In this document: one piece after another, positions 24,025 to 43,073 of the stretch
How positions within the stretch are numbered: the stretch's first letter is position 1
How the letters are laid out: every line of letters begins with the position of its first letter
Assembly (NCBI GenBank): GCA_017305555.1
Contig: JAFKKM010000040.1
Coordinates: 1-52,501, forward strand
Direction: 5' to 3'
DNA: 52,501 nucleotides
DNA from: Hyphomicrobiales bacterium
GTDB lineage: Bacteria > Pseudomonadota > Alphaproteobacteria > Rhizobiales > Xanthobacteraceae
The notes under the pieces: generated by a model
Told to the model about the DNA's origin: nothing
What the model saw: only the letters and a program-made list of their open reading frames with translations
The model's database searches: none
Program-made: the position numbers and the translations under genes

Positions 24025-24099
24025 GGGCGCGTAGCTCAGCGGGAGAGCACTACCTTGACATGGTAGGGGTCACAGGTTCGATCCCTGTCGCGCCCACCA
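24025..24099 (+). tRNA. tRNA-Val (anticodon GAC)
   Basis: A complete cloverleaf of 75 bases with encoded CCA. The acceptor GGGCGCG pairs with CGCGCCC; the D arm is GCTC/GAGC; the anticodon stem CTACC/GGTAG carries loop TTGACAT (GAC); the T arm is ACAGG-TTCGATC-CCTGT. Everything right of it for tens of kilobases has accessory character, so its 3' end may be the integration site of an island. Confidence 0.98.
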
Positions 24100-29192: not shown

Positions 29193-29218
29193 TGATCCAA
29201 ACGCATTCCCGTTACGTA
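29193..29218 (+). promoter_or_regulatory. RpoE/ChrR-type ECF promoter, site 1 (tspO-phr)
   Basis: TGATCC at 29193-29198, exactly 16 bases, then CGTA at 29215-29218. This is the same spaced pair found before rpoE itself at 37438. It lies 70 bases upstream of tspO and would drive tspO and the photolyase gene. Confidence 0.8.
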
Positions 29219-29287
29219 AGCTATATGCAAAAAACAACTTTGCGACAAAATGCCTGTGCATGAGGTCGCCTTTTCCAGAGAACCGTA

Positions 29288-29779
29288 ATGAACTGCCAAG
29301 CAAACTCAGCGGCATGGGTCAGAGCATCGGTCGCCTTGCTCCCGGTGATTGCGGCGTTACTTCTGGGCCAGTGGGCAACATATCCCAATATAGCATCATG
29401 GTATGCAGCGCTTGTTAAGCCGTCATTCAACCCACCCAACTGGATTTTTGCTCCAGTTTGGTCCATCCTTTACGTGTTGATGGCTTATGCGGTCTGGCGC
29501 ATCCTGAAAGTTGATGACAGACCTGCGGAGCGCCGTATCGCGCTGACGCTTTTCTTTCTGCAACTGACGCTGAATGCGCTGTGGTCATGGCTATTTTTCG
29601 GGTTGAACAATCCCCTTGCCGGATTGCTTAACATCCTGCCGCAGTTTCTGCTCATCCTGGCAACAATAGATCGGTTCCGCAGGCTCGATCTGATCGCCGC
29701 TCTTTGTTTGGTGCCGCTCGCGGCGTGGGTCGCATTTGCATCGTTGCTGAACTTTGAAATCTGGCGTCTGAATGGCTAA
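29288..29779 (+). CDS. tspO: TspO/MBR family tryptophan-rich sensory protein
   Basis: This 163-residue membrane protein has five hydrophobic helices. The conserved KPSFNPPNWIFAPVWSILYV and LNALWSWLFFGLNNPLAGL carry the tryptophans and prolines that define the family. Bacterial TspO binds porphyrins and can promote their light- and oxygen-dependent breakdown or export; in Rhodobacter it affects expression of photosynthesis genes. The gene precedes a photolyase gene by 17 bases and stands behind an RpoE-type promoter, which fits removal of photosensitising porphyrin during singlet-oxygen stress. Confidence 0.95.
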   Translation: MNCQANSAAWVRASVALLPVIAALLLGQWATYPNIASWYAALVKPSFNPPNWIFAPVWSILYVLMAYAVWRILKVDDRPAERRIALTLFFLQLTLNALWSWLFFGLNNPLAGLLNILPQFLLILATIDRFRRLDLIAALCLVPLAAWVAFASLLNFEIWRLNG

Positions 29780-29796
29780 CGGAGAAGCAGAAGACG

Positions 29797-31248
29797 ATGG
29801 CCTCCGAGGGCTCTTTTTCAGAGTCAGAACGTCCCGTGATCGTCTGGTTCCGAGACGATCTTCGCTTATCCGATAACCCAGCGTTGACCGCTGCGGCGAA
29901 CTCTGGCCGCAAGATCATCTGCATCTTCGTGCATGATGAAGAATCCGAGGGGATTCGCCCGCTCGGTGGCGCCGCGCGCTGGTGGCTACACGGCGCCTTG
30001 CAGAAACTGGATGATAAACTGCGTCGCCTTGGCACTAGACTTTCGGTCCATAAAGGATCTGCGCCGGTGGTTATCCCGCAGCTTTCGGCTCACATCAGGG
30101 CGGCGGCAGTCTATTGGAACCGCCGATATGGAAGGGCGGAGCGCTGCGTCGATGAGGCTGTGAAAACCGCCCTCAAAACACAGCGGATAGAAGCGAGAAG
30201 CTTTAATGGCCACCTGCTTTACGAGCCGTGGTTGATCAATACCAAGTCCGGCGGTCCGTTCCGTGTGTTCTCTGCATTCTGGCGAGCCGCACATGAGACT
30301 GGCGAACCGTGCCAGCCGCTCAGTGCCCCCTCACGGCTGAACGCGTTCAGTGATTCCTGCGAGCAGACGTCAACGAGAGTTGAGCTTGCCGATCTTGCAC
30401 TCGAGCCGTCATCACCTGATTGGGCGGGCGTACTACGATCAAGTTGGCGACCCGGAGAAGCCGGTGCCCAAGCCCAGCTCGATTTTTTTCTCGAAAAGCA
30501 TTTGAAAGAGTACGCCGATCTCAGGGACTTTCCTGACCGATCGGCGACATCACGGCTCTCGCCCTATCTGCGCTTTGGCAACATCTCACCCCGGCAACTG
30601 TGGCACGCTGCAGAGGCCGCAGCTAACGCGAGTGCCGCTTTAAGGCCTCATCGAAGCCTCGAAAAATTCCAATCTGAACTGGGCTGGCGTGAGTTCTCGT
30701 ACCATCTTCTCTACCATAATCCCGAGATAGTAGCCCAAAATCTGCAACGTAGATTTGACGGTATGCCTTGGCGAACAGATGCCGACGCGCTTCGAGCGTG
30801 GCAGCTAGGCAAAACGGGCTATCCGATTGTCGATGCCGGCATGCGCGAACTTTGGACCACAGGGTGGATGCACAACCGGGTGCGCATGGTGGTCGCATCG
30901 TTCCTGATCAAGCATCTGCTGATCGATTGGCGGCAGGGCGAGGCTTGGTTCTGGGACACGCTTGTGGATGCCGATCCGGCCAATAACGCGGCGAGTTGGC
31001 AATGGGTCGCCGGGTCGGGCGCGGACGCTGCACCCTACTTCCGAGTTTTCAACCCGGTTCTTCAAGGTGAGAAATTCGACCCCGAGGGCCGCTATGTCAA
31101 ACGATGGGTTCCGGAACTTGCCAACGTTTCTCCATCCGTTATTCATCAGCCTTGGCAACTTGAGAGTAAGGTCGAAATTTATCCCGAACGAATCGTCGAA
31201 CACGCTCGGGCCCGCCAACGCGCACTCGATGCCTTTAAGAACCTATAG
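29797..31248 (+). CDS. phrB: deoxyribodipyrimidine (CPD) photolyase
   Basis: This 483-residue light-driven DNA repair enzyme has an N-terminal antenna domain starting VIVWFRDDLRLSDNPALTAA. The FAD-binding helical domain has LGWREFSYHLLYHNPEIVA, TGWMHNRVRMVVASFLIKHL and WFWDTLVDADPANNAASWQW, the class I photolyase signatures. The length is normal. It is the second gene of the tspO unit under an RpoE-type promoter; a photolyase gene (phrA) is also a known RpoE-ChrR target in Rhodobacter sphaeroides. A cryptochrome role is possible but less likely given the intact repair-type motifs. Confidence 0.96.
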   Translation: MASEGSFSESERPVIVWFRDDLRLSDNPALTAAANSGRKIICIFVHDEESEGIRPLGGAARWWLHGALQKLDDKLRRLGTRLSVHKGSAPVVIPQLSAHIRAAAVYWNRRYGRAERCVDEAVKTALKTQRIEARSFNGHLLYEPWLINTKSGGPFRVFSAFWRAAHETGEPCQPLSAPSRLNAFSDSCEQTSTRVELADLALEPSSPDWAGVLRSSWRPGEAGAQAQLDFFLEKHLKEYADLRDFPDRSATSRLSPYLRFGNISPRQLWHAAEAAANASAALRPHRSLEKFQSELGWREFSYHLLYHNPEIVAQNLQRRFDGMPWRTDADALRAWQLGKTGYPIVDAGMRELWTTGWMHNRVRMVVASFLIKHLLIDWRQGEAWFWDTLVDADPANNAASWQWVAGSGADAAPYFRVFNPVLQGEKFDPEGRYVKRWVPELANVSPSVIHQPWQLESKVEIYPERIVEHARARQRALDAFKNL

Positions 31249-31901
31249 GGTGATCTGTATTGCCGACCTGCTCATCCGCGTGACGACAAGTTTGTATTGG
31301 CCGCACAGTTTACTCTCCATGCGGCTCAAGTTGCGTGGACTAATCTGATATCAGCGGCGATCGACCATTTCCGAAAGAAAGACGACGTCCGATTCGTAGA
31401 AGTCGCCATGAGCCCAATCGCGTCTGCTTTCTATATCGTCCGATCCAAATACGGCCGACGCTTCTTTGTCTCTTTCGTACTCGACGCTGACAGATCGCAG
31501 CGAACCGGACATGGGGCAATGGACAAGGTGTTTCTATATTCGTCTCTCCAAATGAAAACGAACTCCAAGAACGATAGTGGGAGATAACAGCATGTCTCGT
31601 CTAAAATTCGTGCGCGCCGCTTCCAGATCTCGTCACGCATCTGATTGTCGCCTGGAAGTCCGAGCAAGCCATAGCAGGATGTTTCGCGCGAGCATGACAA
31701 GCAACTACTTGTGGCACTGTGAGCCAGCACAAAAACGGTCGTTTGCGTGTTGTCGTAAACTCCTCGCCCTGACGTGACCGCTATGGGCAGATCGGCTATG
31801 ACAAATTTTCCCTACGCGCAATTCTCGTCGACCTGTCTTTCATCCTGCCGTCATGGGTCACAGAGCGGGTCTAGCTCACTCCCACCAATCTGTTACGGCA
31901 G
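31249..31901. other. gene-poor tract upstream of the hemH promoter
   Basis: About 650 bases. One plus-strand frame at 31297-31587 (96 codons, with VEVAMSPIASAFYIVRSKYG) reads somewhat like protein but has no recognised family or ribosome site; it may be a remnant. The rest shows no gene, repeat or transposon end. Confidence 0.35.
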
Positions 31902-31927
31902 TGATCCGCTCGGCTCTCCCATCCGTA
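31902..31927 (+). promoter_or_regulatory. RpoE/ChrR-type ECF promoter, site 2 (hemH-CIA30)
   Basis: TGATCC at 31902-31907, 16 bases, CGTA at 31924-31927. The predicted transcript would begin near 31935 and reach hemH after about 220 bases. The leader holds no convincing gene; a 24-codon frame starting near 31938 is the best candidate for a leader peptide and is weak. Confidence 0.7.
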
Positions 31928-32155
31928 TTTGTATTGAATGCGTCCGAGGCCAGATAGGACGACAGCCAGGGGAAAATCGGAAAATACTCGAGCCAGATCT
32001 GGAACATCCTAATTGTGTGCTTCTCTTTGAGATAGACACGACACTTTCGAAGACGATCGAGGAAGCAAGACGCCTGAAGACAAACTTCTTCAGAGCAACA
32101 CGTAAAATTCTGGTGGAGCTCACGCGCTCCTTAACCCTGTCGGCGTTCGTTAAAA

Positions 32156-33196
32156 ATGGATCGTGTAATTTTGATTGAGAACGCACCATCCGGGCATCCA
32201 AAGGTGCAATATGGCAAAATCGGTGTGTTGCTGATCAATCTCGGCACACCTGATGCCACCGATCCCGCTTCAATACGCCGATATCTCGCAGAATTTCTGT
32301 CAGATCGCCGCGTCATCGAGTGGTCTCGTTGGCTTTGGTATCCGATACTCTACGGCCTCGTCCTGAATACTAGACCAAGAAAAGTCGGAAAAGCCTACGC
32401 GAAGATTTGGAACAAGGAGAGAGACGAAAGCTACCTGCGGACTTTCACGCGTAGCCAGGCTTTGCAACTCACCAATAGGTTGTCGGATCTTTCGTCGGTG
32501 CGAATTGAGTGGGCGATGCGTTATGGCCAGCCGTCGATACGCGGCAAGATCGAGGAGCTTCAGCGAAGCGGCTGCGAAAGAATACTTTTATACCCTCTCT
32601 ATCCTCAGTATGCGGCAGCGACGACGGCGACTGTGAATGACGAAAGTTTCAGGGCGCTTATCGATTTGAGATGGCAGCCGGCAATCCGCACCGTACCTAG
32701 ATATCACGACGACCCGATCTATATCGACGCTCTCGCCCGTTCGATCGAAAGTTTTATCCCCAGTCTCGGTTGGGAGCCGGACATGTTGCTGACTTCCTAC
32801 CATGGCATCCCGATGTCATATTTCATGAAGGGCGATCCCTATCACTGTCAGTGTCAAAAAACGACGAGGCTGCTCAGGGAACGTCTCGGTTGGGACCAAG
32901 ATCGGATAATGGTGACGTTTCAATCGAGGTTCGGTCCTGAAGAATGGCTGCAGCCATACACCGACAAGACCTTAGAACAGATGGCAAGAAACGGGACGAA
33001 GAGAGTTGCGGTGATCAATCCGGGCTTTGTTTCCGACTGCCTGGAAACGCTAGAGGAGATTGCGGTCGAGGCGAAAGAGATATTTCTTCATAATGGTGGT
33101 GAGCGGTTCGCCCATGTGCCGTGCCTCAACGACGGGTCGGACGGCATGAAGGTCATTGAACACATCGTGCGCGAGGAACTATCAGGTTGGGTGTGA
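32156..33196 (+). CDS. hemH: ferrochelatase
   Basis: This 346-residue enzyme inserts Fe2+ into protoporphyrin IX, the last step of protohaem synthesis. The N-terminal KIGVLLINLGTPDATDPASI and LAEFLSDRRVIEW are typical. The catalytic histidine lies in LLTSYHGIPMSYFMKGDPYH, and the conserved glutamate is in FVSDCLETLEEIAVE. No strong ribosome site precedes the ATG at 32156, so the exact start is uncertain. Its place behind an RpoE-type promoter and beside accessory genes suggests a stress-induced extra copy that lowers free protoporphyrin, a strong photosensitiser. Confidence 0.96.
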   Translation: MDRVILIENAPSGHPKVQYGKIGVLLINLGTPDATDPASIRRYLAEFLSDRRVIEWSRWLWYPILYGLVLNTRPRKVGKAYAKIWNKERDESYLRTFTRSQALQLTNRLSDLSSVRIEWAMRYGQPSIRGKIEELQRSGCERILLYPLYPQYAAATTATVNDESFRALIDLRWQPAIRTVPRYHDDPIYIDALARSIESFIPSLGWEPDMLLTSYHGIPMSYFMKGDPYHCQCQKTTRLLRERLGWDQDRIMVTFQSRFGPEEWLQPYTDKTLEQMARNGTKRVAVINPGFVSDCLETLEEIAVEAKEIFLHNGGERFAHVPCLNDGSDGMKVIEHIVREELSGWV

Positions 33197-33247
33197 GGCG
33201 GTATCAAATTTCGCTGACACGCGTTCACGAATACGAGGGACGGAAAG

Positions 33248-33784
33248 GTGCTCTCTGCGTCCGCAACGATTGACGACCTCAGCAGGGAGCCTCCTGTGGC
33301 TACAATTGGCAGCGTCTGGCAACTTGTTACAGACCAGGTCATGGGCGGAATTTCCAAAGGAGTGATGGGTCGCGAGATGGTCGCCGGCCGGGCCGCCATC
33401 CGCGTGCGCGGAGACGTAAGCTTGGAAAACAATGGAGGATTTATTCAAGCAGTCCTCGACCTCTCGCCGACACCTCACGTTGTGGATGCAAGTGGCTGGG
33501 ACGGGATTGCGATCGACATGTTCGGCAATGGCGAGGATTACGGCGTTCACCTGAGGACGGACTATCTGGCAAGGCCGTGGCAGTCATACCGCCAGAATTT
33601 CACGGCATCTGCAGAGTGGCGGACAGTCGTTTTGCGGTTCAGCGCCTTTGCTCCCTATCGCACAGATACTCCACTCGACAAACGTCGGTTGCGGCGTGTC
33701 GGGCTGGTAGCAATAGGCCGTGACTTTCGATGCGATTTTGCTATCAGCGGGTTGAGGTATATTGGCGCCGATACTCACGGCTGA
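33248..33784 (+). CDS. CIA30 family protein
   Basis: The product has 178 residues from a GTG at 33248, 51 bases after hemH. WQLVTDQVMGGISKGVMGRE and NNGGFIQAVLDL, then VHLRTDYLARPWQSYRQNFT, are the hallmarks of the complex I intermediate-associated protein 30 (CIA30) beta-sandwich family. In mitochondria NDUFAF1 helps assemble NADH dehydrogenase; bacterial members are soluble and uncharacterised, possibly sugar- or flavin-related. It is probably transcribed with hemH from the ECF promoter at 31902. Confidence 0.88.
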   Translation: MLSASATIDDLSREPPVATIGSVWQLVTDQVMGGISKGVMGREMVAGRAAIRVRGDVSLENNGGFIQAVLDLSPTPHVVDASGWDGIAIDMFGNGEDYGVHLRTDYLARPWQSYRQNFTASAEWRTVVLRFSAFAPYRTDTPLDKRRLRRVGLVAIGRDFRCDFAISGLRYIGADTHG

Positions 33785-33958
33785 AATCTCCGATAAATCA
33801 TAAATGGCGACGCAACCAATTTGAGATCGCGCCTCACCCGATATCGGCATCCCACTTATCTTTTAGCCCGCAGGCGAGAGCGTCCGCCATCAATTGTCCG
33901 ATAATCCAGCCGGAATTTGTGTCAGAAGAAAATCGACATTGCCGCAACATCGTCTGGC

Positions 33959-35179
33959 TCAGCCTTTGGCAAGAACATAAAACCCCACATCAATGGTTTC
34001 AGCCCTGAAACCAGCCTCGCAGTAACAGAGGTAGTAGTCCCAAAGCCTGCGAAAGCGTTCGGAAAACCCCATTTCGGCGATGTCGGGCCATGACGCCAGG
34101 AATCTTTTGCGCCACTCGGCCAGTGTCGCTGCATAGCTCTGGCCGAAACTCTCTGTCGAAACCAGCTCGAGGCCAGCCCGCGCGCTTAGTTCGACAAGAA
34201 TCCCTTTGGTTGGCAGCATTCCTCCTGGGAAGATATGCCGCTGAATAAAATCGGCTGACCTGCGATAGGTCTCGAACCGAGTTTCGTCGATCGTGATCAC
34301 CTGTAGAACCACTATGCCGCCCTCGTGCAAGCGGTCATGCAGCGTCTTGAAATAGATCGGCCAATAAGCCTCGCCAACCGCCTCCAGCATCTCGATCGAT
34401 ACGATCCTGTCATAGCGGCCTTCGAGGTCACGATAGTCAGTCAATTCCAAAGCGACTTTGCCGACCGCCGCTTGCTGTTCGACGCGCTGGCGCGAGAAGG
34501 CCAGTTGCTCGGACGATAGGGTCACGCCGGTCACGCGAGCACCTGCAAGGGCCAATCTCATGGCCAACGCTCCCCAGCCGCAGCCGATTTCGAGGACTTT
34601 CTCGCCGCCACGGAGGTCGAGAAGCTGCTCTACTCGTGACAGCTTGGCTTCCTGTGCGTCTTCAAGCGTCTGGTCCGGATGCGCATACAGTGCCGAAGAA
34701 TAGGTCATGCTTCGATCGAGCCAGCGCTCGTAGAAAGCGTTGCCGAGATCGTAGTGGAAAGCAATGTTCCTGCGGCTGCCGGCCTTGCTATTCGCGCGCA
34801 GCAAATGCCGCACACGATTAAAAATGCGCGCCGGCCAGAAACCGGCAGTGCTGCGGTCGAGCAGGGCTATGTTGCCCGCCGCCAATTCCAGCAGCGCGGG
34901 AAGGTCAGGGCTCGTCCAGTCGCCATCGATATAGGCCTCGGCGAAGCCCAGGTCCCCCTGGCTGATGAGCCGCCCGATCGCCCGCCAACGATTCAAAACA
35001 AGCATTGCGGACGGTCCGGTCGACGCTCCGGATCGTTGGATCCGATCACCCGAAGGGAGCACGACAGTGATTTGGCCGAAATCGATCTGCGCGATCATTC
35101 GGTTCAGCGCACGGACGACCAGGCCTTCCCCGGGCCCTTCAAGGCCACTCAATGTCGTTGTCTTGCTCTCAAATGTCAT
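33959..35179 (-). CDS. cyclopropane-fatty-acid synthase family protein
   Basis: The product has 406 residues from the ATG at 35179, overlapping the DUF1365 stop by 11 bases. SAM-binding motif I is KVLEIGCGWGALAMRLALAG. RNIAFHYDLGNAFYERWLD and SIEMLEAVGEAYWPIYF are typical of CFA synthases, which add a methylene or methyl group to unsaturated acyl chains within phospholipid. The C-terminus CYCEAGFRAETIDVGFYVLA is complete. It is the last gene of the FAD oxidase-DUF1365-CFA operon. In Rhodobacter, RpoE-regulated homologues take part in methylated or furan fatty-acid formation, so simple cyclopropane synthesis is not certain. Confidence 0.95.
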   Translation of the reverse strand: MTFESKTTTLSGLEGPGEGLVVRALNRMIAQIDFGQITVVLPSGDRIQRSGASTGPSAMLVLNRWRAIGRLISQGDLGFAEAYIDGDWTSPDLPALLELAAGNIALLDRSTAGFWPARIFNRVRHLLRANSKAGSRRNIAFHYDLGNAFYERWLDRSMTYSSALYAHPDQTLEDAQEAKLSRVEQLLDLRGGEKVLEIGCGWGALAMRLALAGARVTGVTLSSEQLAFSRQRVEQQAAVGKVALELTDYRDLEGRYDRIVSIEMLEAVGEAYWPIYFKTLHDRLHEGGIVVLQVITIDETRFETYRRSADFIQRHIFPGGMLPTKGILVELSARAGLELVSTESFGQSYAATLAEWRKRFLASWPDIAEMGFSERFRRLWDYYLCYCEAGFRAETIDVGFYVLAKG

Positions 35180-35990
35180 TCGTGCCGCTCTTCTCGTAAC
35201 GATTACTCTTCGGTTCCGCGCCGCGCCCGAGGGTGACTGGCCGATCGGGCGGAGAGGGTCGCGTGACAAGACCGATCCCCTTCAGCCATACGAGCAGTGC
35301 TTCCCAGTGGATGCCCGCGATCACCTTTAACGTCAGCAGCGGATAGAGGAAAAACGCACGAGCTAATGAGGCATCCGTCAATTTTTTTCTGACCGCGGCT
35401 AGTTTTGCGATAATAAGCGGCCCGCTCTCGTCGTGACCAACGACCGAAACCGACAGGTTCGATCCGGGTGGCACGACGGAAAAGGAGTAGGCCATGTCGG
35501 TGGTCATGAAAGGCGACACATAAAAGGATTTCTGGCTTTGTTGCCGGATCGGCTCCTCGACACCCGAGGGAACGGGAATCAAGTAGCTATGGCGCTGCCC
35601 GAAGGTGTTGTTGACCTCGTATAAGATCGCGGAAAGCGATTGATCGCGTCTGTGGCAAAAATAGATGCTCAGCGGATTGAAAGCGTAGCCCAGGATGCGG
35701 GGCATGGTGAGAAGCTGGATCGGGCCGCCGGATTCAACCCCGGCTTCCCGCAACTGCCGCTCGACCCATTCGCGAGGTGACAGCATCGCTCCCTCGCCAT
35801 AGTCTCGATCGTGAATACTGAAAAGATTGAAGCGATTATGCGAGAACAGGCGGACCCGGCCTGCCAGGATTTCCACCTCATCGAGATCAATCAGAAGATA
35901 GAAGATGCTGTAACGCAGGCGGTGTTCTCTTGGCCGCAGCCTGTGATGCATCACATAACCAGCATAGAGACCTGATCGGAATTCGGGCAT
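35169..35990 (-). CDS. DUF1365 domain protein
   Basis: The product has 273 residues from the ATG at 35990, overlapping the stop of the FAD oxidase gene (TGATG). Characteristic elements are YAGYVMHHRLRPREHRLRYS, LTMPRILGYAFNPLSIYFCH and YEVNNTFGQRHSYLIPV, then SFYVSPFMTTDMAYSFSV. The biochemical role is unknown; the family almost always lies between an FAD amine-oxidase-like gene and a CFA-synthase-like gene and belongs to the RpoE-ChrR core regulon. It probably acts on, or presents, acyl lipids. A longer upstream frame overlaps the neighbour and is not supported. Confidence 0.93.
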   Translation of the reverse strand: MPEFRSGLYAGYVMHHRLRPREHRLRYSIFYLLIDLDEVEILAGRVRLFSHNRFNLFSIHDRDYGEGAMLSPREWVERQLREAGVESGGPIQLLTMPRILGYAFNPLSIYFCHRRDQSLSAILYEVNNTFGQRHSYLIPVPSGVEEPIRQQSQKSFYVSPFMTTDMAYSFSVVPPGSNLSVSVVGHDESGPLIIAKLAAVRKKLTDASLARAFFLYPLLTLKVIAGIHWEALLVWLKGIGLVTRPSPPDRPVTLGRGAEPKSNRYEKSGTNDI

Positions 35991-37369
35991 CAGGCGGCCT
36001 CCGCCTCCTGCAAGTTGGGCTCTCCGCGATAAAGGTGGATGCGCCCGGATTCGTCCGGCACTGTCCATGGCCGCCGCACACCGCCGAGGGCTTCGGCGAC
36101 CGCGAGGCCGGCCTGCAGCCCATCCTCGTGAAACCCGGCGCCAAAATAGGCGCCGCAGAACCATGTGTTGCGGTGGCCCTGTAGTGACCAAAGCTCCTTC
36201 TGCGCCTTCATCGCCACGGCATCGAAACGCGGGTGACTATAACTCATCCGCTTCAAGATCGCGTCGGCCTCAATTTCCCTGTGAGGATTAAGCGTGACGA
36301 AGAGGGGCCGGTCACTCTCGATTGCCTGCAGGCGGTTCATCCAGTAGGTCACCGCGAGCCTGCGGCCATCGTCGTCATCCCTGGTCATATAGTTCCAACT
36401 CGACCACACACGCCGCCGCAGTGGCATCAGTCGCGGATCGGTGTGAAGGACGGTATCGTTGACGATATAGTTGAATGCGCCAAGCAGACGCCGTTCGTCA
36501 TTGCTCGGGTCGGCAAGCATTTTCAGCGCCTGGTCCGCGTGAGCAGCGATGACAACGTGATCGAAGCGGCGCCGGTGACCATGTTGTCCGATGATCTCGA
36601 TGCCATCTACCGTGCGGACAATAGCCTTGACGGGATGGTTCGAAACGACTTCCGGTATGCCTTGCGACAGCATCTGGACGTAGGATCGACTGCCGCCGGC
36701 AACAGTTCGCCATATCGGTCGGCCAACCAGTTTCAGAAGGCCGTGGGTCTGGCAAAACCGGATGAACGAGGCCGCAGGATAGGCGCCAATATTCGCCGCC
36801 GGGGTCGACCAGATTGCGGCCGCCATGGGATAGAGATGGTCATTGCGGAAGCCGTCGCCATAGCCTGCCGCATCAAGATATTCATCGAGCGTTATCATGC
36901 CCAGAGCCGCCACATTGCACGGCGCTTCGCGATAAAAGCGGACGAGATCGCGCAGCATCATCCAGAATCTCGGGCTGACGGCGTTCCTGCCCTGTGCGAA
37001 AAGGCCCAACAATCCGGTGCCGGAATATTCAAGACGGCCGTCGTCGAGGGAAACGGCGAACGACATATCGGAACGCCTAGTGGCAATGCCGAGGTGATCG
37101 AAGAGCGCTGTGAGGTTCGGATAGGTGTTCTCGTTAAAGACGATGAAGCCGGTATCGACCGCGACGCCGGCGACATCGACAGTGTGGCTGTGTCCACCCA
37201 ACCGGCCATCGCTTTCGTAGAGAACCACGCGATTCCGCTTCGACAGCAGCCATGCGGCGGACAGCCCGGAAATACCGCTGCCCACGACCGCGATATCGAG
37301 ACCGCTATCGGGAATCGGCCGACGCTTTGGTCCGCCATTCCAGTCGGTCCCTGCAATCATTTCGGTCAA
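35990..37369 (-). CDS. FAD-dependent oxidoreductase (amine-oxidase-like)
   Basis: The product has 459 residues from a TTG at 37369, chosen because GGAGGG lies six bases upstream; an ATG at 37360 or a distant start at 37486 are alternatives, but the latter precedes the predicted promoter. The dinucleotide fold is DIAVVGSGISGLSAAWLL followed by YESDGRLGGHSHTVD. The C-terminal FAD-binding GAYFGAGFHEDGLQAGLAVA is intact. Homologues in RpoE-ChrR regulons are annotated as cyclopropane/unsaturated fatty-acid proteins and may desaturate or oxidise phospholipid acyl chains. It is the first gene of the operon under the leftward ECF promoter. Confidence 0.93.
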   Translation of the reverse strand: MTEMIAGTDWNGGPKRRPIPDSGLDIAVVGSGISGLSAAWLLSKRNRVVLYESDGRLGGHSHTVDVAGVAVDTGFIVFNENTYPNLTALFDHLGIATRRSDMSFAVSLDDGRLEYSGTGLLGLFAQGRNAVSPRFWMMLRDLVRFYREAPCNVAALGMITLDEYLDAAGYGDGFRNDHLYPMAAAIWSTPAANIGAYPAASFIRFCQTHGLLKLVGRPIWRTVAGGSRSYVQMLSQGIPEVVSNHPVKAIVRTVDGIEIIGQHGHRRRFDHVVIAAHADQALKMLADPSNDERRLLGAFNYIVNDTVLHTDPRLMPLRRRVWSSWNYMTRDDDDGRRLAVTYWMNRLQAIESDRPLFVTLNPHREIEADAILKRMSYSHPRFDAVAMKAQKELWSLQGHRNTWFCGAYFGAGFHEDGLQAGLAVAEALGGVRRPWTVPDESGRIHLYRGEPNLQEAEAA

Positions 37370-37402
37370 GGATTTCCCTCCGCTCGCCAAACTGCCACTA
37401 TT

Positions 37403-37428
37403 TACGAAACTTGACGCGTCATAGATCA
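37403..37428 (-). promoter_or_regulatory. RpoE/ChrR-type ECF promoter, site 3 (FAD oxidase operon)
   Basis: On the minus strand, TGATCT (37423-37428), 16 bases, CGTA (37403-37406). It faces away from the rpoE promoter, the two -35 elements being nine bases apart. A start near 37396 leaves about 27 bases before the TTG start codon. Confidence 0.8.
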
Positions 37429-37437
37429 CTCTTGGCG

Positions 37438-37463
37438 TGATCCGTTGGAGGGGTTCCGGCGTA
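37438..37463 (+). promoter_or_regulatory. RpoE/ChrR-type ECF promoter, site 4 (rpoE autoregulation)
   Basis: TGATCC (37438-37443), 16 bases, CGTA (37460-37463). This is the expected self-controlled promoter of the sigma factor gene. Transcription should start near 37470, only a few bases before the first ATG at 37474, so the message is either leaderless or translation begins further in. Confidence 0.85.
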
Positions 37464-37473
37464 TGAAGGGCAA

Positions 37474-38127
37474 ATGGATGCAGCAAGCTTATATTTCGGC
37501 ATTAGAAATGCGCGGCAAGTCCGCCCCGCGGCCAGGCTCGTTGTTTTGAACGAGGCCAGGCAAAAGGAAGTGCTGCCCTCTCCTGAGGAACTGATCGGTC
37601 TCGTCGAGGCGGTCGGGCGAGAGCAGGACCGGAATGCCTTCGCGCGCCTGTTCGGATATTTCGCGCCCCGCGTCAAAAGCTTCCTCATGCGCTCGGGCCT
37701 GGCGGATTCGACCGCCGAGGAAGTGACCCAGGAGGTCATGATCGCGGTATGGCGAAAGGCGTCTTATTTCGATCCGGGTAAGGCCGGCGTGTCGACATGG
37801 GTGTTTACGATCGCTCGCAATCAAAGGATTGATCGGCTTCGCCGCACGCGCTCTCGGACAGCCGAAAGTCTTTCGGATCCGAGTGACGAGCCCGACATGC
37901 CATTATCGGGTGAAGAGATCACGATCACGGCGGAGCGGGAGGAAGGGGTGCGAAAGGCCTTGGCAACCCTGCCGAGTGATCAGGCTACGATCGTGCGACT
38001 TTCTTTCTTTGCTGAGAAGCCACATGCGGAGATCGCGCGAGAATTGGGCATTCCGCTGGGCACCGTAAAATCCCGCGTTCGGCTGGCATTGAGCCGCCTT
38101 CGGACCTTGTTGGACAGCGATATATGA
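37474..38127 (+). CDS. rpoE: ECF sigma factor RpoE (ChrR-controlled, ECF11-like)
   Basis: Up to 217 residues. Region 2 is RLFGYFAPRVKSFLMRSGLA through VSTWVFTIARNQRIDRLRRT; region 4 is LPSDQATIVRLSFFAEKPHA and LGIPLGTVKSRVRLALSRLR. It resembles R. sphaeroides RpoE, the singlet-oxygen sigma factor of about 181 residues, so the first 30 or so residues here may not be translated: the predicted start of transcription almost coincides with the ATG at 37474, and a GTG at 37570 fits the homologous start but lacks a well-placed ribosome site. The stop overlaps chrR (ATGA). Confidence 0.94.
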   Translation: MDAASLYFGIRNARQVRPAARLVVLNEARQKEVLPSPEELIGLVEAVGREQDRNAFARLFGYFAPRVKSFLMRSGLADSTAEEVTQEVMIAVWRKASYFDPGKAGVSTWVFTIARNQRIDRLRRTRSRTAESLSDPSDEPDMPLSGEEITITAEREEGVRKALATLPSDQATIVRLSFFAEKPHAEIARELGIPLGTVKSRVRLALSRLRTLLDSDI

Positions 38128-38771
38128 GTATTAAGCATCATCCCAGCGACGAAACGCTGATGCGCATGGCGGCCGGCGCTTTGGGCGCAGGCCCCGCGAT
38201 TGTCGTATCCGTCCACCTAGAAGGATGTGCCGTCTGCCGTAACCGTATGGCGCATTTCGAGGCCGTTGGAGGTGCGATTCTGGACGGGATGCCATCCGCT
38301 CCTCTTGCCGCGGATCTGTTCGGACGCACCATGGAGCGGCTCGAAGCCGCTCCACCGTTACCGACGAGAGAGCGGATGGTTAAGCGCCCCGAACTAGGAT
38401 TGGAGCTTCCGCGAGCCATGCAGAACTGCGAAGTCGGTCCGTGGAAATGGCTTGGACCCGGCTTTCAGTGGAGCAAGGTCAAGATCGTTGGCAGCCCGGA
38501 CGCCAAGGTCATGCTGATCAAGGGGAAGGCCGGGCTTCATCTGCCAGCGCATGGACATACCGGTCTCGAATTCATGCAGATTCTTTCTGGATCGCTGGCT
38601 GACGAGCGCGGTCAATATTTGCCGGGGGATCTCGACGAGGCGGACAGCGACGTCGATCATCGCCCGGTCGTCGGGCAGGATTCGGATTGCATCTGTCTTG
38701 CCGCTCTTGAAGGTGATACACGCCTTCACGGATTGCTCGGTCGCCTTTTGCGCCCGTTCGTGGGCTTCTGA
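38124..38771 (+). CDS. chrR: ChrR family zinc anti-sigma factor
   Basis: This 215-residue protein has two domains. The N-terminal anti-sigma domain has the zinc set His6, His31, Cys35 and Cys38 (VHLEGCAVCRNRM), the same positions I recall for R. sphaeroides ChrR. The C-terminal cupin has probable metal ligands His143, His145, Glu149 and His179 (PAHGHTGLEFMQILSG, then DVDHRPV). The protein holds RpoE inactive; singlet oxygen acting through the cupin leads to its release and ChrR breakdown. All ligands are present, so the switch should work. Confidence 0.95.
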   Translation: MSIKHHPSDETLMRMAAGALGAGPAIVVSVHLEGCAVCRNRMAHFEAVGGAILDGMPSAPLAADLFGRTMERLEAAPPLPTRERMVKRPELGLELPRAMQNCEVGPWKWLGPGFQWSKVKIVGSPDAKVMLIKGKAGLHLPAHGHTGLEFMQILSGSLADERGQYLPGDLDEADSDVDHRPVVGQDSDCICLAALEGDTRLHGLLGRLLRPFVGF

Positions 38772-38824
38772 TCGATGACCCTCGCGGCCGCAATCAGCCG
38801 AGCGCCTCGAGAGACGGCCGACGC

Positions 38825-39682
38825 ATGAACTTGCTCCCGTCGCCGGTCGATTGTCTGAATGCGATCGCCAGGATCGATGCGCCGTACGCCCGTCAGGGTA
38901 TGCGTTATGGCAGTGGTCCGCGCCATATCCTTGATGTCTATCCGGCGGCAGCAAGCGGACCCACCCCCGTCATCGTGTTCTTCTACGGCGGCGGCTGGGA
39001 AGGCGGTGAACGAGGCAATTATTTTTTTGTTGGGTCGGCGCTGGCATCCCGCGGCTTCACGACCGTCATTCCCGATTACCGAGTTTACCCGGAGGTGCGC
39101 TTCCCTGGATTCGTCGAGGATGCGGCGGCTGTAATGCGCTGGACGGTCGATCGCATCGCCGAGGTTGGCGGCGATCGGCGCCGGCTCATCGTCATGGGCC
39201 ATTCGGCGGGCGCCTATATTGCCGCGATGCTGGCGTTCGATCGGAAATGGTTTGCCAGCGTCGATCTCGACGCGCGCGTCGAGCTGCGCGCAATGATCGG
39301 CCTCGCCGGCCCCTACGATTTCCTGCCGCTGCGCAGCCGAAAGTTGAGGAAGATCTTTGGACCGGAGGAAGACCTCGCGGGGACACAGCCCATCAACTTC
39401 GTGGACACGCTCGCGCCACCGGCATTTCTGGCGACTGGAACGAGAGATCTGACTGTGCGGCCCGCCAACACGATCCGGCTCGCCGAGCGCATAAGGCACG
39501 TCGGCGGCGAAGTCGACGTGAAGCTCTACAAGCGGGTCAATCACCGCACGCTGGTCGGAGCCTTGGCACGGCCGTTACGGTTTCTGGCGCCGGTTCTCGA
39601 CGATGTCACGAGCTTCGCTCTGAAACACTCCCATCCCCAGGCGCCTGTCGATTGGACAGCGGCGCCGGGCAGGATCGCATGA
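38825..39682 (+). CDS. alpha/beta hydrolase, esterase/lipase (BD-FAE/kynurenine-formamidase-like)
   Basis: This 285-residue protein has the oxyanion element VFFYGGGWEGGERGNYFFVG (about 51-70) and the nucleophile elbow VMGHSAGAYIAA with Ser127. The aspartate is probably in LATGTRDLTVRPA, and the histidine in RVNHRTLVGAL. It lies 53 bases after chrR and overlaps the DUF1295 gene by ATGA, so it belongs to the rpoE operon. A role in releasing or editing damaged acyl chains would fit the neighbours, but the substrate is unknown. Confidence 0.9.
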   Translation: MNLLPSPVDCLNAIARIDAPYARQGMRYGSGPRHILDVYPAAASGPTPVIVFFYGGGWEGGERGNYFFVGSALASRGFTTVIPDYRVYPEVRFPGFVEDAAAVMRWTVDRIAEVGGDRRRLIVMGHSAGAYIAAMLAFDRKWFASVDLDARVELRAMIGLAGPYDFLPLRSRKLRKIFGPEEDLAGTQPINFVDTLAPPAFLATGTRDLTVRPANTIRLAERIRHVGGEVDVKLYKRVNHRTLVGALARPLRFLAPVLDDVTSFALKHSHPQAPVDWTAAPGRIA

Positions 39683-40509
39683 CGGCGTCGATCGTCATGA
39701 TCGCGCTCGCGGCTTGTCTCTCGGCGACGATGATGGGGGCGTGGCTTGTGGCGCTTCGGTCCGGCCGATCGGGCTGGATCGATGCGATCTGGTCCTTTGC
39801 CACCGGCGGATTCGGCGCGGCAGTTGCCCTTGTTCCTCTCGCCGAAACCCAGCTCTCCGTGCGGCAGTTGCTCGTGGCGGCTCTGGCGCTGGCCTGGTCA
39901 TTGCGACTCGGTATTCACATCGCGGTTCGGACCGCTCGCGGCGGTGACGATCCGCGCTATCGGCAGCTGCGCGAGGAATGGGGCGACGCTTTCCGGCTTC
40001 GCCTGTTCTGGTTCCTGCAAATCCAGGCGCTGGTGGCGCTCGCGCTGGCTCTGTCGATCATGCTCGCGGCACACAATCCCGCACCCGGGCTCAGAGCCTC
40101 CGACTGGATCGGCGTCGCAATCCTGATCGCGGCGGTCGCCGGCGAGTCGATCGCCGACCGCCAGCTTTCAGCGTTTCGCGACGATCCGGCGAACAAGGGT
40201 CGCGTTTGCGACATCCGGCTCTGGGGGATGTCGCGCCACCCCAATTATTTTTTCGAATGGATGGGCTGGTTCGCCTACGCCATCATCGCAATCGATTTTT
40301 CAGGTGCCTATCCCTGGGGCTGGCTGGCTCTCGCGGGGCCAGCGCTGATGTACTGGCTCCTCGTCCACGCCTCCGGCATTCCGCCGCTCGAAGCGCACAT
40401 GCTTCGCTCGCGTGGACCGGCATTTCGCGACTATCAACATCGCGTCAACGCATTCTGGCCCGGCCCGCAACACGCTGCACAAGCGCATGACAATGGAGAC
40501 ATTCGATGA
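39679..40509 (+). CDS. DUF1295 membrane protein (steroid-reductase/methyltransferase-like)
   Basis: The product has 276 residues from the ATG at 39679; the much longer open frame upstream is antisense-like filler over the hydrolase gene. Seven or so hydrophobic segments end in the DUF1295/ICMT-like signature WGMSRHPNYFFEWMGWFAYA and HASGIPPLEAHMLRSRG. Related enzymes include 3-oxo-5-alpha-steroid 4-dehydrogenases and isoprenylcysteine methyltransferases, all acting on lipids at the membrane. It overlaps both neighbours by four bases and belongs to the rpoE-chrR operon; lipid modification in the stress response is the likely job. Confidence 0.92.
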   Translation: MTASIVMIALAACLSATMMGAWLVALRSGRSGWIDAIWSFATGGFGAAVALVPLAETQLSVRQLLVAALALAWSLRLGIHIAVRTARGGDDPRYRQLREEWGDAFRLRLFWFLQIQALVALALALSIMLAAHNPAPGLRASDWIGVAILIAAVAGESIADRQLSAFRDDPANKGRVCDIRLWGMSRHPNYFFEWMGWFAYAIIAIDFSGAYPWGWLALAGPALMYWLLVHASGIPPLEAHMLRSRGPAFRDYQHRVNAFWPGPQHAAQAHDNGDIR

Positions 40510-41534
40510 GCTTGATTGCCTCAGTGATCCGCGCCGCCGAACGCGCGTCGCTTCCCGACTTCCTCGCGCAAATGGGCGTCGAACTCCTGGTCGGGCGCAC
40601 GCGACGAAAGCTTGCCGCCGCGCGGCATGTGGCGGAGAGCGATTTCGCGCGCGCCATGAGCGATCATCCGATCGCCGAACATGCCGAAGCTGCGAACAAG
40701 CAGCATTACGAACTGCCGCCCAAGTTTTTCGCCCTCACGCTCGGCCCACACCGCAAGTACTCGTGCTGCCTTTATCCGACGGGTGAGGAGACACTGGCCG
40801 ACGCCGAGCGGTTGTCGCTGGAAGAAACGGTCGCGCATGCCAATCTCGCCAATGGGCAATCAATCTTGGAACTCGGCTGCGGCTGGGGCTCGCTGACGCT
40901 GTTCATGGCGGAGCGGTTTCCGCGTTCGACCATCACCGCTGTCTCGAATTCCAGGCCGCAACGACTGCATATCGAGGCTCAGGCGGCCGAACGCGGCCTC
41001 GCCAATGTCCGCGTCATAACTGCGGATATGAATGAATTCACGACGGCCGGGTCGTATGACAGGATCGTCTCTGTCGAGATGTTCGAGCATATGTCGAACT
41101 GGAAGGGGCTGCTCGAACGCATCAGGACATGGCTCGTCCCCGAGACGGGAAGGCTTTTCGTTCACGTCTTCAGTCACAGGAACAGCCCCTATCGTTTCGA
41201 TCACACGAACGAAGCGGACTGGATCGCCCAACACTTCTTCACGGGAGGAATCATGCCAAGCCACGGCCTGATCGGGCATTTCCCGGATTGTTTTGTGATC
41301 GAACAGGATTGGCGCTGGAGCGGGATTCACTATCAGAAGACAGCGGTGGGCTGGCTGGCGCGCTTCGATGAAAATCGCCGGGAGATAGATCGGATCCTCG
41401 GCAATGTTTACGGTGCCGACGCCGCGCTCTGGCGCCAGCGTTGGCGCCTCTTTTATCTGGCGACCGCCGGGCTGTTCGGACATGCCGGCGGCGAGGAATG
41501 GGGCGTAAGCCATTATCTCCTGCGTCCAGCCTGA
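40506..41534 (+). CDS. second CFA-synthase-like methyltransferase (CfaA-like)
   Basis: This 342-residue protein has SAM motif I in SILELGCGWGSLTLFMAERF, HYELPPKFFALTLGPHRKYS and RIVSVEMFEHMSNWKGLLER, close to the coclaurine N-methyltransferase-like branch of the CFA family rather than to classic CFA synthase. It lacks the longer N-terminal domain of the 406-residue paralogue at 33959. It overlaps the DUF1295 gene by ATGA. An RpoE-controlled cfaA of this type is known in R. sphaeroides. It may methylate unsaturated acyl chains; the exact product is not predictable. Confidence 0.93.
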   Translation: MSLIASVIRAAERASLPDFLAQMGVELLVGRTRRKLAAARHVAESDFARAMSDHPIAEHAEAANKQHYELPPKFFALTLGPHRKYSCCLYPTGEETLADAERLSLEETVAHANLANGQSILELGCGWGSLTLFMAERFPRSTITAVSNSRPQRLHIEAQAAERGLANVRVITADMNEFTTAGSYDRIVSVEMFEHMSNWKGLLERIRTWLVPETGRLFVHVFSHRNSPYRFDHTNEADWIAQHFFTGGIMPSHGLIGHFPDCFVIEQDWRWSGIHYQKTAVGWLARFDENRREIDRILGNVYGADAALWRQRWRLFYLATAGLFGHAGGEEWGVSHYLLRPA

Positions 41535-41548
41535 CGCCCAGTAAATCC

Positions 41549-42118
41549 ATGAATCGTCTTCGACACATGTGGGATCGAATCGCGGGTTACGTCGCACATG
41601 ACGATCCCATGGTCGCCGCCTGCAACATGATTGCGCTGGTCGTGGCGTCCAACCAGCCGTTTTATCCACTCTATGTCTATTGGACCGTCAGCGACCATGT
41701 CTGGCCGACTTTCTTCACCTTCCTGTCAACGCCGTTGTTCCTGGCCGTGCCGGCCGTAGCCAGACGATATTCCAGGACAGGCCGAGCGCTGCTCCCCATT
41801 GCCGGCATTGCCAACACGATGTTGAGCGCTCAAGTATTCGGCCCCGCGTCGGGCGTGGAGATTTTTCTGATTCCGTGCGCCTTGATTGCTGCGACGTTCT
41901 TCAGAGCCTCGGAGAGGCTTATCGCATTTGTTTTGATCGGCGCGGCCTTCCTTGTTTATGTGGGACTTCACGGCGTGTATGGCGTTCCAGTCCACATCTA
42001 CACGGCTCCCGAGTATCATGCATTTTCGCGGCTGAACGCTATGAGCGCGGGCACACTCTGCGTCTTCGTCGGACTCATCGCGTCAGGGCTGATAAGCCAG
42101 ATCAGTTGGCGGACGTGA
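41549..42118 (+). CDS. hypothetical integral membrane protein
   Basis: The product has 189 residues from the ATG at 41549, 14 bases after the CFA-like gene. It has five or six hydrophobic segments, including AACNMIALVVASNQPFYPLY and IFLIPCALIAATFF, ending GTLCVFVGLIASGLISQ. An N-terminal piece of this sort is seen on some membrane-bound adenylate cyclases and sensor proteins, but no catalytic domain follows here. It is probably the last gene of the rpoE operon. Its 3' end overlaps the convergent DUF2177 gene by 17 bases. Confidence 0.75.
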   Translation: MNRLRHMWDRIAGYVAHDDPMVAACNMIALVVASNQPFYPLYVYWTVSDHVWPTFFTFLSTPLFLAVPAVARRYSRTGRALLPIAGIANTMLSAQVFGPASGVEIFLIPCALIAATFFRASERLIAFVLIGAAFLVYVGLHGVYGVPVHIYTAPEYHAFSRLNAMSAGTLCVFVGLIASGLISQISWRT

Positions 42119-42512
42119 AGGCGCGTGTGATCAGAAAACCGACCGTTGCCGCAACCGCAGTCAGAAAGGTTCCCCAGCACAGATCGGCGACGGTCACCGC
42201 TAACGGCCAGTTTTTCAACGTCGCCTGGTTGGTCAGGTCGTAGGTCGCATAGGCAAAAAGACCGAGAAACGCGCCATAGGATGTTGCTGTCGTCCATCTT
42301 TCGCTGGCCAAGGCAGGCGCGACTGCAAAAACGACGATGCCTGTGATGTAGATGAGATAGAACAACGCCGCTGGCGCCAGCCTGAAGCCATCGACCAGCA
42401 TGTCACCCATGAGCGGACGATAGAGCCGCTGTGCAGCCACGGTCAGCCAGATTGCATCGATGGCGAGAAACAACAAGCCGGTCGCGATGTAGGCGATGCC
42501 ATAAGTTTTCAA
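42102..42512 (-). CDS. DUF2177 membrane protein
   Basis: The product has 136 residues from a TTG at 42512, where the family-typical start LKTYGIAYIATGLLFLAIDA begins; the upstream frame runs into the promoter. It has four hydrophobic segments, with the conserved AIWLTVAAQRLYRPLMGD and GAFLGLFAYATYDLTNQATL. Function is unknown; the family is a frequent member of RpoE-ChrR regulons. A perfectly spaced ECF promoter at 42546-42571 precedes it. Confidence 0.92.
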   Translation of the reverse strand: MKTYGIAYIATGLLFLAIDAIWLTVAAQRLYRPLMGDMLVDGFRLAPAALFYLIYITGIVVFAVAPALASERWTTATSYGAFLGLFAYATYDLTNQATLKNWPLAVTVADLCWGTFLTAVAATVGFLITRAFTSAN

Positions 42513-42545
42513 AGGTTGGCCTTTCCTTGCCTGAGATGCTCTCGT

Positions 42546-42571
42546 TACGCCTCTGAGTGATCTTCGGATCA
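42546..42571 (-). promoter_or_regulatory. RpoE/ChrR-type ECF promoter, site 5 (DUF2177)
   Basis: On the minus strand, TGATCC (42566-42571), 16 bases, CGTA (42546-42549). A start near 42539 leaves about 27 bases before the TTG start codon, much like the FAD oxidase operon. Confidence 0.8.
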
Positions 42572-42629
42572 CAGTGGGTTGCTTGTTACCGCGATCCAAG
42601 CTTCGAAGGCCGTGCCCACGCATGGAATG

Positions 42630-42655
42630 TGATCCGAACACGGAATGCCTGCGTA
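42630..42655 (+). promoter_or_regulatory. RpoE/ChrR-type ECF promoter, site 6 (DUF2147)
   Basis: TGATCC (42630-42635), 16 bases, CGTA (42652-42655). It is divergent from site 5 with 58 bases between the -35 elements. A start near 42663 leaves about 39 bases to the ATG at 42702. Confidence 0.8.
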
Positions 42656-42701: not shown

Positions 42702-43073
42702 ATGCGCGCTGCGGCATTCTCTATTGTTTCATTAATAGGTTGCACTGCCCTCGCAGCTCAGGAGCGTAGTCCTGACGGAGTGTGGCAGCGCGATGACGGC
42801 AACGCTCGCGTCAGAATCGCACCGTGCGGTTCCAAGCTATGCGCCACAAACCTTTGGATCAAAGACACGAGCAAGGGCGAGGAGGTCGGGGACCGACTGG
42901 TCATGACTCTCAATCGTAAGTCTCCCACGAAGCTTACAGGAACCGCGTACGACCCGAAGCGAGACAAGAACTATGCCATAACGTTAGTTGTCGATAGCGG
43001 CAGCTTGATCACACGCGGCTGTATCCTGGGCGGACTGCTCTGCCGGGATGTGAATTGGGCTCCGGCAAATTGA
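42702..43073 (+). CDS. DUF2147 secreted protein
   Basis: The product has 123 residues from the ATG at 42702 (a GTG at 42696 is also possible). The signal peptide MRAAAFSIVSLIGCTALAAQ is followed by SPDGVWQRDDGNARVRIAPC, CATNLWIKD and GTAYDPKRDKNYAITLVVDS, the small beta-barrel DUF2147 family. A further cysteine pair in GCILGGLLCRDVNW could form a disulfide. Periplasmic; function unknown. The ECF site upstream puts it in the singlet-oxygen regulon. Confidence 0.9.
   Translation: MRAAAFSIVSLIGCTALAAQERSPDGVWQRDDGNARVRIAPCGSKLCATNLWIKDTSKGEEVGDRLVMTLNRKSPTKLTGTAYDPKRDKNYAITLVVDSGSLITRGCILGGLLCRDVNWAPAN

Follow-up and report, generated by a model that had tools for sequence, protein, structure and literature searches.

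A probable RpoE-ChrR photo-oxidative stress regulon gathered on an apparently transferable genomic island of a Hyphomicrobiales bacterium

The subject of this analysis is a block of genes at approximately 29193 to 42655 in a 52,501-nt stretch of DNA (the window) from a Hyphomicrobiales bacterium of the Xanthobacteraceae (assembly GCA_017305555.1, 5.17 Mb; contig JAFKKM010000040.1, positions 1 to 52,501, forward strand), in which the motif TGATCY-N16-CGTA recurs. Very probably, this block is the photo-oxidative stress regulon of an extracytoplasmic function (ECF) sigma factor of group ECF11, RpoE, and its anti-sigma factor, ChrR, packed on a horizontally transferable island. Well supported by sequence, it would be a known system in an extended, mobile form: the DNA itself shows the genes, the conserved promoter motifs, the zinc ligands, and the marks of an island, and from these the inducer, transcription, enzyme activities, porphyrin role, and all other physiology are predicted. 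As a whole, the block looks like a self-contained kit, probably defending against light-made singlet oxygen, with a switch, a brake, and thirteen genes behind six promoters that would protect membrane, DNA, and pigment. New here are the island setting with a plasmid copy, an adjoining SigK-like/RskA/fasciclin system, and an overlap in gene families with the list of SAK1-dependent genes of Chlamydomonas. A first-pass annotation of the window, which had proposed the regulon, did not recognize that the block probably makes furan fatty acids, that it apparently lies on an island and has a copy on a plasmid, that a second ECF system adjoins it, or that the genome has another hemH.

The exact motif is found at six predicted promoters:

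29193..29218, plus strand: ECF11-type promoter before tspO-phr; 69 nt to the tspO ATG
31902..31927, plus strand: ECF11-type promoter before hemH-CIA30; 228-nt leader to the hemH ATG
37403..37428, minus strand: ECF11-type promoter of ufaD-ufaO-ufaM
37438..37463, plus strand: ECF11-type promoter of the rpoE operon (autoregulation)
42546..42571, minus strand: ECF11-type promoter of DUF2177
42630..42655, plus strand: ECF11-type promoter of DUF2147

ECF11-type promoters have been published for Rhodobacter sphaeroides, Shewanella (rpoE2 and pgpD-hemH2, with mapped start sites), and Pseudomonas syringae. All six sites of the window, already reported in the first-pass annotation, were present without mismatch, and each precedes a unit and points into it, although the earlier wording "just upstream" is loose for hemH, whose ATG lies 228 nt behind the -10 element. 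That the best match stands before rpoE, as had also been claimed, is unproven, since all six sites fit the pattern. Shuffled versions of the window held a mean of 0.14 sites and a maximum of 2. Genome-wide, 13 exact matches were found, 6 of them inside the block. Six of the seven others lie within an open reading frame (ORF; five antisense, one sense), and the last straddles the end of a phage-like ORF and is directed into it in antisense; by their translations, read by eye, the ORFs at these outside sites are of cation-diffusion, oxidoreductase, phage-like, binding-protein, dehydrogenase-subunit, and acetolactate synthase-subunit type. Against this background of 7 sites in 5.16 Mb, 0.018 sites would be expected in 13.5 kb, and the probability of six or more is approximately 5e-14.

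The motif is also kept in place in relatives. We found 32 loci with the sigma factor and used 27, excluding L041 to L045 (29 to 46% RpoE identity, partial). Of the 26 with enough DNA upstream of rpoE, 18 carry an exact motif before that gene, 6 have a site with a single mismatch, and 2 have no site; in the 11 closest loci, the distance to rpoE is identical. For ufaD, it is exact in 15 of 22 loci, with a 17-nt spacer in 1 of the others; for DUF2177, in 11 of 14 (one mismatch in 2, none in 1); for DUF2147, in 5 of 6, the sixth having one mismatch; and for hemH, in both loci available (L014 and L016). The exact motif, when sought upstream of operon-internal genes, was absent before ufaO (0/22), chrR (0/27), and DUF1295 (0/13). 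Rows for the second CFA-like gene and the second ECF gene were set aside, as the best tblastn match was often a paralogue (ufaM or rpoE), and the ufaM row could not serve as a control, the match being the second CFA gene in at least L017, L019, and L022. Among the matches listed, a divergent motif pair lies within approximately 0.7 kb of chrR in 7 of 8 ChrR-bearing genomes (the window's own included), and G037 has no such pair but a single site 143 bp before a weaker second ChrR-like match. In two genomes of one genus (G013 and G057), a divergent pair stands approximately 100 bp before a chrR-like match, with no space for rpoE between.

The ufaO-ufaD, rpoE-chrR, DUF1295-CFA2, and DUF2177 genes are clustered in 10 of the 27 loci; of these, 7 also have ufaM in its usual position and 6 have DUF2147 (within the locus stretches examined). 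The gathering of these genes, which had been pointed out because they are often scattered, is thus not peculiar to this genome but recurs in relatives and on a plasmid (see below). What stands of the earlier interpretation is an ECF11 pair and a conserved promoter motif that precedes rpoE and five other units.

Two loci carry further motifs. In Afipia (L014, 15668 to 18573), two more exact sites lie near genes for an EAL protein, a blue-light sensor of the BLUF type, and GTP cyclohydrolase I (folE, approximately 120 nt behind the second of them), a hint that the regulon of that locus includes photoreceptor and folate genes. In Pseudaminobacter (L023, 17007 to 18804), a second divergent exact pair is flanked by a DUF2459 gene and by one for an alpha/beta hydrolase.

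The switch consists of two genes:

37474..38127, plus strand: rpoE, ECF11 sigma factor; best solved relative R. sphaeroides RpoE; start ATG 37474 or TTG 37546
38124..38771, plus strand: chrR, zinc anti-sigma factor with cupin domain; TIGR02451 above cut-off

Among solved structures, RpoE matched R. sphaeroides RpoE (2q1z_A) at 8.7e-45, followed by SigK at 5.8e-20; the genome holds no other close copy, the next match being 34% identical. ChrR scored 184.8 against TIGR02451 (cut-off, 124.5), has 2z2s and 2q1z_B as its nearest structures, and aligns to 2z2s over residues 1 to 203. It keeps all eight published zinc ligands, H6, H31, C35, and C38 of the zinc anti-sigma (ZAS) domain and H143, H145, E149, and H179 of the cupin domain (ligand list from PMC6852236). 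On these sequence grounds, the pair is classed as ECF11 RpoE-ChrR. The rpoE mRNA may be near-leaderless, starting from ATG 37474, which lies only 10 nt behind the -10 element and is shared by all 13 sequences of an alignment free of indels, or may have a leader before TTG 37546. Over codons 1 to 24 of these 13 sequences, differences at the three codon positions were 0.277, 0.224, and 0.369, versus 0.147, 0.100, and 0.429 in the body of the gene, so that the third-position excess is weaker there.

We propose that ChrR, through its zinc anti-sigma and zinc cupin domains, would hold RpoE until ChrR is lost in response to singlet oxygen or to a product of lipid peroxides, whereupon the freed RpoE would read the six promoters. 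One of these would provide autoregulation (rpoE-chrR-hydrolase-DUF1295-CFA2-conserved ORF), and the divergent one would drive ufaD-ufaO-ufaM and thereby furan fatty acids, with positive feedback as in R. sphaeroides; the others would serve photolyase with TspO, the second ferrochelatase with CIA30, DUF2177, and DUF2147. TspO and HemH2 may reduce the pool of free protoporphyrin IX, which is itself the photosensitizer. The block would then act on damage (photolyase), on the membrane (furan lipids), and on the source (porphyrin).

The membrane branch is encoded by the ufa-like genes and the remainder of the rpoE operon:

33959..35269, minus strand: ufaM-like fatty-acyl methylase (CFA-like); PF02353, 3e-83; gene order as in Rhodopseudomonas palustris RPA2571-2569
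35169..36191, minus strand: ufaO-like DUF1365 protein; PF07103, 1.6e-79; listed ORF, true start probably internal
35990..37360, minus strand: ufaD-like FAD desaturase; PF01593/PF13450; the ATG 42 nt behind the -10 element was chosen as start
38825..39682, plus strand: alpha/beta hydrolase of the rpoE operon; PF20434
39679..40509, plus strand: DUF1295 membrane protein; PF06966, 9e-64; weakly steroid-reductase-like (PF02544, 2.1e-5); ATG 39679
40506..41534, plus strand: second CFA-like methylase, FufM candidate; PF02353, 6.1e-37
41549..42118, plus strand: conserved ORF without Pfam match; ATG 41549 chosen as start

According to the title of Lemke's 2014 work, furan fatty acids reportedly scavenge singlet oxygen. 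Three adjacent genes, for an FAD oxidase, a DUF1365 protein, and a CFA-like methylase, are present as in the Ufa pathway and are best read as a ufaD-ufaO-ufaM furan-fatty-acid operon with predicted activities. In R. sphaeroides and R. palustris, UfaD, UfaO (the DUF1365 protein), and UfaM make furan fatty acids on membrane lipids (PMC7380195), and in R. sphaeroides, the furan-fatty-acid genes belong to the core regulon and are needed for ChrR turnover, a positive feedback (PMC6852236). By locus number, R. palustris RPA2571-2569 has ufaD, ufaO, and ufaM in the order of the window, and that species, too, has an additional CFA-like methylase, the dimethyl-furan methylase FufM (RPA0924), which is 26% identical to R. 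sphaeroides UfaM. The second methylase of the window, 29.8% identical over 218 residues to the block's ufaM-like protein, is a candidate FufM; it lies inside the rpoE operon, whereas fufM of R. palustris is distant from the ufa genes by locus number. Among the 20 proteins scanned, there was no SDR or GPH symporter of the RSP1087 and RSP1089 types. The ORF at 41549..42118 is kept at 66 to 88% in loci L014 to L019, L021 to L023, and L040.

At the left of the block stand the genes that would deal with DNA damage and porphyrins:

29288..29779, plus strand: tspO, porphyrin-handling membrane protein; PF03073, 1.1e-43
29797..31248, plus strand: phr, DNA photolyase; PF03441/PF00875
32156..33196, plus strand: hemH2, second ferrochelatase; PF00762
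33248..33784, plus strand: CIA30-family protein; PF08547; 51 nt behind hemH

The other hemH copy, on contig C125, is 54% identical to hemH2. Shewanella likewise has a second ferrochelatase gene behind TGATCC-N16-CGTA, which is RpoE2 dependent, and a double hemH mutant is not viable in light (PMC4336711, PMC6664582). In Shewanella oneidensis, which shares the ECF11 (RpoE2-ChrR) control of this gene, hemH2 is paired with a glutathione peroxidase gene (pgpD-hemH2), whereas its partner in the window is CIA30. For Rhodobacter capsulatus, induction of TspO and of a ferrochelatase-type enzyme, there CbiX, has been argued to limit porphyrin photosensitizers (PMC7074977). The second ferrochelatase and TspO of the window may thus be tied to disposal of the photosensitizer itself. 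In the long hemH leader (31928 to 32155), a 47-amino-acid ORF seems decayed in the window and in L014 (alignment read by eye); L016 (approximately 160 to 330) and L081 (6641 to 6784) have a similar ORF that starts with TTG behind a good ribosome site. Photolyase is present in 9 of 10 relative genomes asked; among these ten, an exact motif precedes it only in M. composti (L082, tspO-phr) and Chelatococcus (L090), with a one-mismatch site in L085. The photolyase promoter motif is therefore not a general rule in relatives.

The last two units behind the motif are oriented divergently:

42102..42512, minus strand: DUF2177 membrane protein; PF09945, 7e-46; TTG start at 42512
42702..43073, plus strand: DUF2147 protein; PF09917

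DUF2177 is present in 14 of 142 class genomes, i.e., in 13 copies outside the window, of which 3 have an exact motif within approximately 110 bp upstream, 3 have one with a single mismatch, and 7 have none (rough P, 1e-8, on the background of the locus comparison); 5 of the 13 adjoin ufa, CFA2, or DUF1295 genes (1.5-kb flanks examined). It is thus a recurrent, though not constant, ECF11 target. DUF1295, DUF2177, and DUF2147 are pointed to here as recurrent regulon members.

The natural inducer of this ECF11 regulon might be an organic hydroperoxide or general oxidative stress and not singlet oxygen, but we consider this unlikely. The promoters and ChrR by themselves cannot distinguish inducers; ECF11 systems respond to tert-butyl hydroperoxide (t-BOOH) too, and mutation of rpoE2 makes Shewanella sensitive to H2O2 and paraquat. 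Against this, the cupin zinc ligands, in a domain required for the singlet-oxygen response in R. sphaeroides, are kept, and photolyase, the ufa genes, tspO, and hemH suit a stress made by light and photosensitizer.

The island assignment was based on the following features:

24025..24099, plus strand: tRNA-Val(GAC) beside the left edge of the island; ARAGORN
24437..26053, minus strand: large serine recombinase; PF00239 and PF07508
48146..52494, minus strand: DUF6671, DabA, and DabB-like genes, island cargo that the plasmid has as well; PF20376, PF10070, PF00361

Guanine-plus-cytosine (GC) content is 0.60 to 0.67 left of 24 kb and 0.53 to 0.63 right of it, with tRNA-Val and then the recombinase gene at the step. 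In one congener (G072), similarity to the window stops at approximately 24238 and other genes follow; ChrR was not found in either of the two sampled congeners (G040 and G072). With a tRNA neighbor, a site-specific recombinase, a composition shift, and absence from both congeners, the block lies on an apparently transferable genomic island. The DabA/DabB inorganic-carbon transporter genes and DUF6671 share this island with the block.

A copy of the block, 78 to 80% identical, is carried by a Mesorhizobium terrae plasmid (NZ_CP044217.1) that is typed as mobilizable in PLSDB and was examined in two stretches, L081 and L092, of 34.8 kb together. Identity is 78.4% over 3.9 kb for tspO-phr-hemH and 79.7% over 9.1 kb for ufaM to DUF2147, and the DUF6671, DabA, and DabB-like genes follow further along in unchanged order at 71 to 72% DNA identity. 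Altogether, tspO, phr, hemH, CIA30, ufaM to DUF2147, fasciclin, and DUF6671-DabA-DabB are shared at 71 to 80% DNA identity and mostly collinear; unlike in the window, CIA30 is inverted, fasciclin lies elsewhere, and cryptochrome-like, SDR, msrPQ, lipocalin, and SOUL genes are added. Seven exact motifs occur in the two stretches, and every one precedes a unit: tspO (this motif falls within a hypothetical ORF of the annotation), hemH, ufaD, rpoE, DUF2177, DUF2147, and a SOUL haem-binding gene (PF04832; L081 25488 to 26114), whose motif stands 36 nt upstream (L092 8578 to 8603), across the origin of the record. Additional stress genes at L081 7950 to 14459 encode a DPRP cryptochrome-like protein, an SDR, MsrPQ, and a fasciclin, and a one-mismatch motif precedes an unknown-SDR-CIA30 unit on the plasmid. 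A plasmid search with the block matched 4 records, three of them Shinella records with approximately 95 bp; the right flank matched 241, of which 15 were listed.

That the block is instead ancestral and vertically inherited appears quite improbable. In the RpoB comparison, for which RpoB was found in 8 of 10 genomes asked, the RpoE identities of Afipia, Tardiphaga, and Chelatococcus do follow the RpoB order (RpoE/RpoB, 86/94%, 79/93%, and 76/84%), but M. composti (RpoE, 87%; RpoB, 81%) and Microvirga (RpoE, 62% over residues 42 to 213; RpoB, 84%) break it, and the congeners that lack ChrR, the tRNA, recombinase, and GC shift, and the plasmid copy stand against vertical inheritance as well. A mobile island suggests that the whole stress regulon, including its switch, is packed so that one transfer could give a new host protection from singlet oxygen.

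Several observations weigh against an ECF11 photo-oxidative stress regulon on an island. The regulon is predicted from DNA, and the ufa names are assigned from protein families and gene order. ChrR scored 178.6 bits against the NCBIfam equivalog for stress ChrR (NF051881), below its cut-off of 300, a model narrower than the ChrR family that we did not treat as defining. The two loci without a motif before rpoE are both from Hyphomonas, ufaD lacks the motif in 6 of 22 loci, and one-mismatch sites occur before the nontarget genes ufaM (3/22; exact, 0/22) and chrR (1/27). In P. syringae B728a, H2O2 sensitivity was unaltered in an ecf11 mutant, so the inducer may differ, and the right end of the island, like any att repeats, may lie past the contig end at 52501. 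Finally, the motif is not specific by number: a looser pattern (any sixth base, spacer of 15 to 17) gave 100 matches genome-wide (contexts were read only for the 13 exact ones), and in a sample of 80 family genomes, exact-motif density was 2.30/Mb in the 28 that bear ChrR and 1.99/Mb in the 49 that lack it (P = 0.088; 3 with weak ChrR matches were set aside).

Because these densities are alike, placement and conservation, not rarity, carry the signal. A genome-wide count as regulon test was dropped: its reversed-pattern control (0 to 3 matches per strand) was unfairly low, as judged from the 8 true-pattern matches in each of the ChrR-lacking congeners G040 and G072. Chance or compositional matches without any regulon, which some two motifs per Mb with or without ChrR and at least one in 80 of 80 genomes might suggest, are a highly implausible explanation, already refuted for the six sites together by conservation before the same genes; the identical rpoE distance in the 11 closest loci, the expectation of 0.018 sites, and the lack of exact sites before ufaO, chrR, and DUF1295 also speak against it.

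Seen as an ECF11 regulon, the block has much in common with R. sphaeroides RpoE-ChrR: sigma factor, anti-sigma factor, zinc ligands, TGATC...CGTA promoters, and the core regulon genes phr, cfa/ufaM, ufaD, and ufaO (list from PMC6852236 and PMC5507510), all present behind the motif. Both also have a fasciclin gene, RSP_1409 in R. sphaeroides, where it stands in the singlet-oxygen table. The R. sphaeroides core genes lie in three loci (PMC5507510), whereas those of the window form one block, which adds hemH2, tspO, CIA30, DUF1295, the second CFA, DUF2177, and DUF2147; and tspO is RpoHII dependent in R. sphaeroides (PMC8307010) but stands behind an ECF11-type motif here. By title and abstract opening, none of 15 publications listed among 34 matches links ChrR to a singlet-oxygen island, and in the parts available, none joins DUF1295 and DUF2177 to the bacterial regulon.

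The gene families also recur in Chlamydomonas. Table 5 of PMC4067076 gives the SAK1-dependent genes, 104 by the paper's count, ordered by singlet-oxygen induction; CFA1 ranks 2nd, SOUL2 5th, SOUL1 10th, CFA2 11th, the fasciclin FAS2 12th, DUF1365 18th, DUF2177 22nd, and DUF1295 25th. The list and the window block thus share CFA (two), DUF1365, DUF1295, DUF2177, and fasciclin families, and SOUL1 and SOUL2 parallel the motif-bearing SOUL gene of the plasmid. The CFA parallel had been remarked by the authors of PMC4067076 and in a review. Quite possibly, though we stop short of calling it probable, one lipid kit against singlet oxygen is common to bacteria and green algae, in which CFA-like methylases, DUF1365, DUF1295, DUF2177, fasciclin, and SOUL form one functional module, run in bacteria from a mobile island that brings its own sigma factor as switch and in Chlamydomonas by SAK1. 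The exact motif before the plasmid SOUL gene slightly raises the probability of this reading. SAK1, however, is a nuclear, eukaryotic regulator, and shared families are no proof of shared ancestry of the response. We know of no role for DUF1295 or DUF2177; if the kit were the same, they would have a part in the synthesis, export, or sensing of furan-type lipids. The block would also allow gene families that respond strongly to singlet oxygen in an alga to be approached in bacteria.

To the right of DUF2147 lies a second sigma factor system:

43252..43788, plus strand: second ECF sigma factor, SigK-like; NF009167 above cut-off
43773..44504, plus strand: RskA-like anti-sigma factor; PF10099
44597..45202, plus strand: fasciclin-domain protein; PF02469, 4.9e-36

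Against the SigK model NF007228, the sigma factor scored 137.7 (cut-off, 226); NF009167 was passed. Plausibly, though less likely than not, RpoE activates this sigma factor, RskA, and fasciclin as the second stage of a cascade. Only 24 nt separate DUF2147 from the start of the SigK-like gene in Pseudaminobacter (L023), where DUF2147 has a box with one mismatch (AGATCC-N16-CGTA); the R. capsulatus pair called rpoE-chrR is SigK/RskA-like and up 3.7 log2 under singlet oxygen; and RSP_1409 is tabulated in R. sphaeroides with rpoE targets. In Azospirillum, RpoE-ChrR reportedly controls fasciclin as well (PMC10949492, citing Dubey 2021). Against a cascade, the 178-nt gap between DUF2147 and the SigK-like gene may hold its own promoter or terminator, and the SigK-like gene was seen only in L023 among the 27 loci (within the DNA stretches examined), with no SigK-like/RskA pair in the 34.8 kb of plasmid; island shuffling may have brought the system alongside.

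On the left of the block, an HSP20-family gene lies on the minus strand at 28274 to 28777, preceded by none of the six exact motifs. On the right, beyond the fasciclin gene and a response-regulator-like ORF, a DDE_3-type (IS630-like) transposase is encoded at 45783 to 46961.

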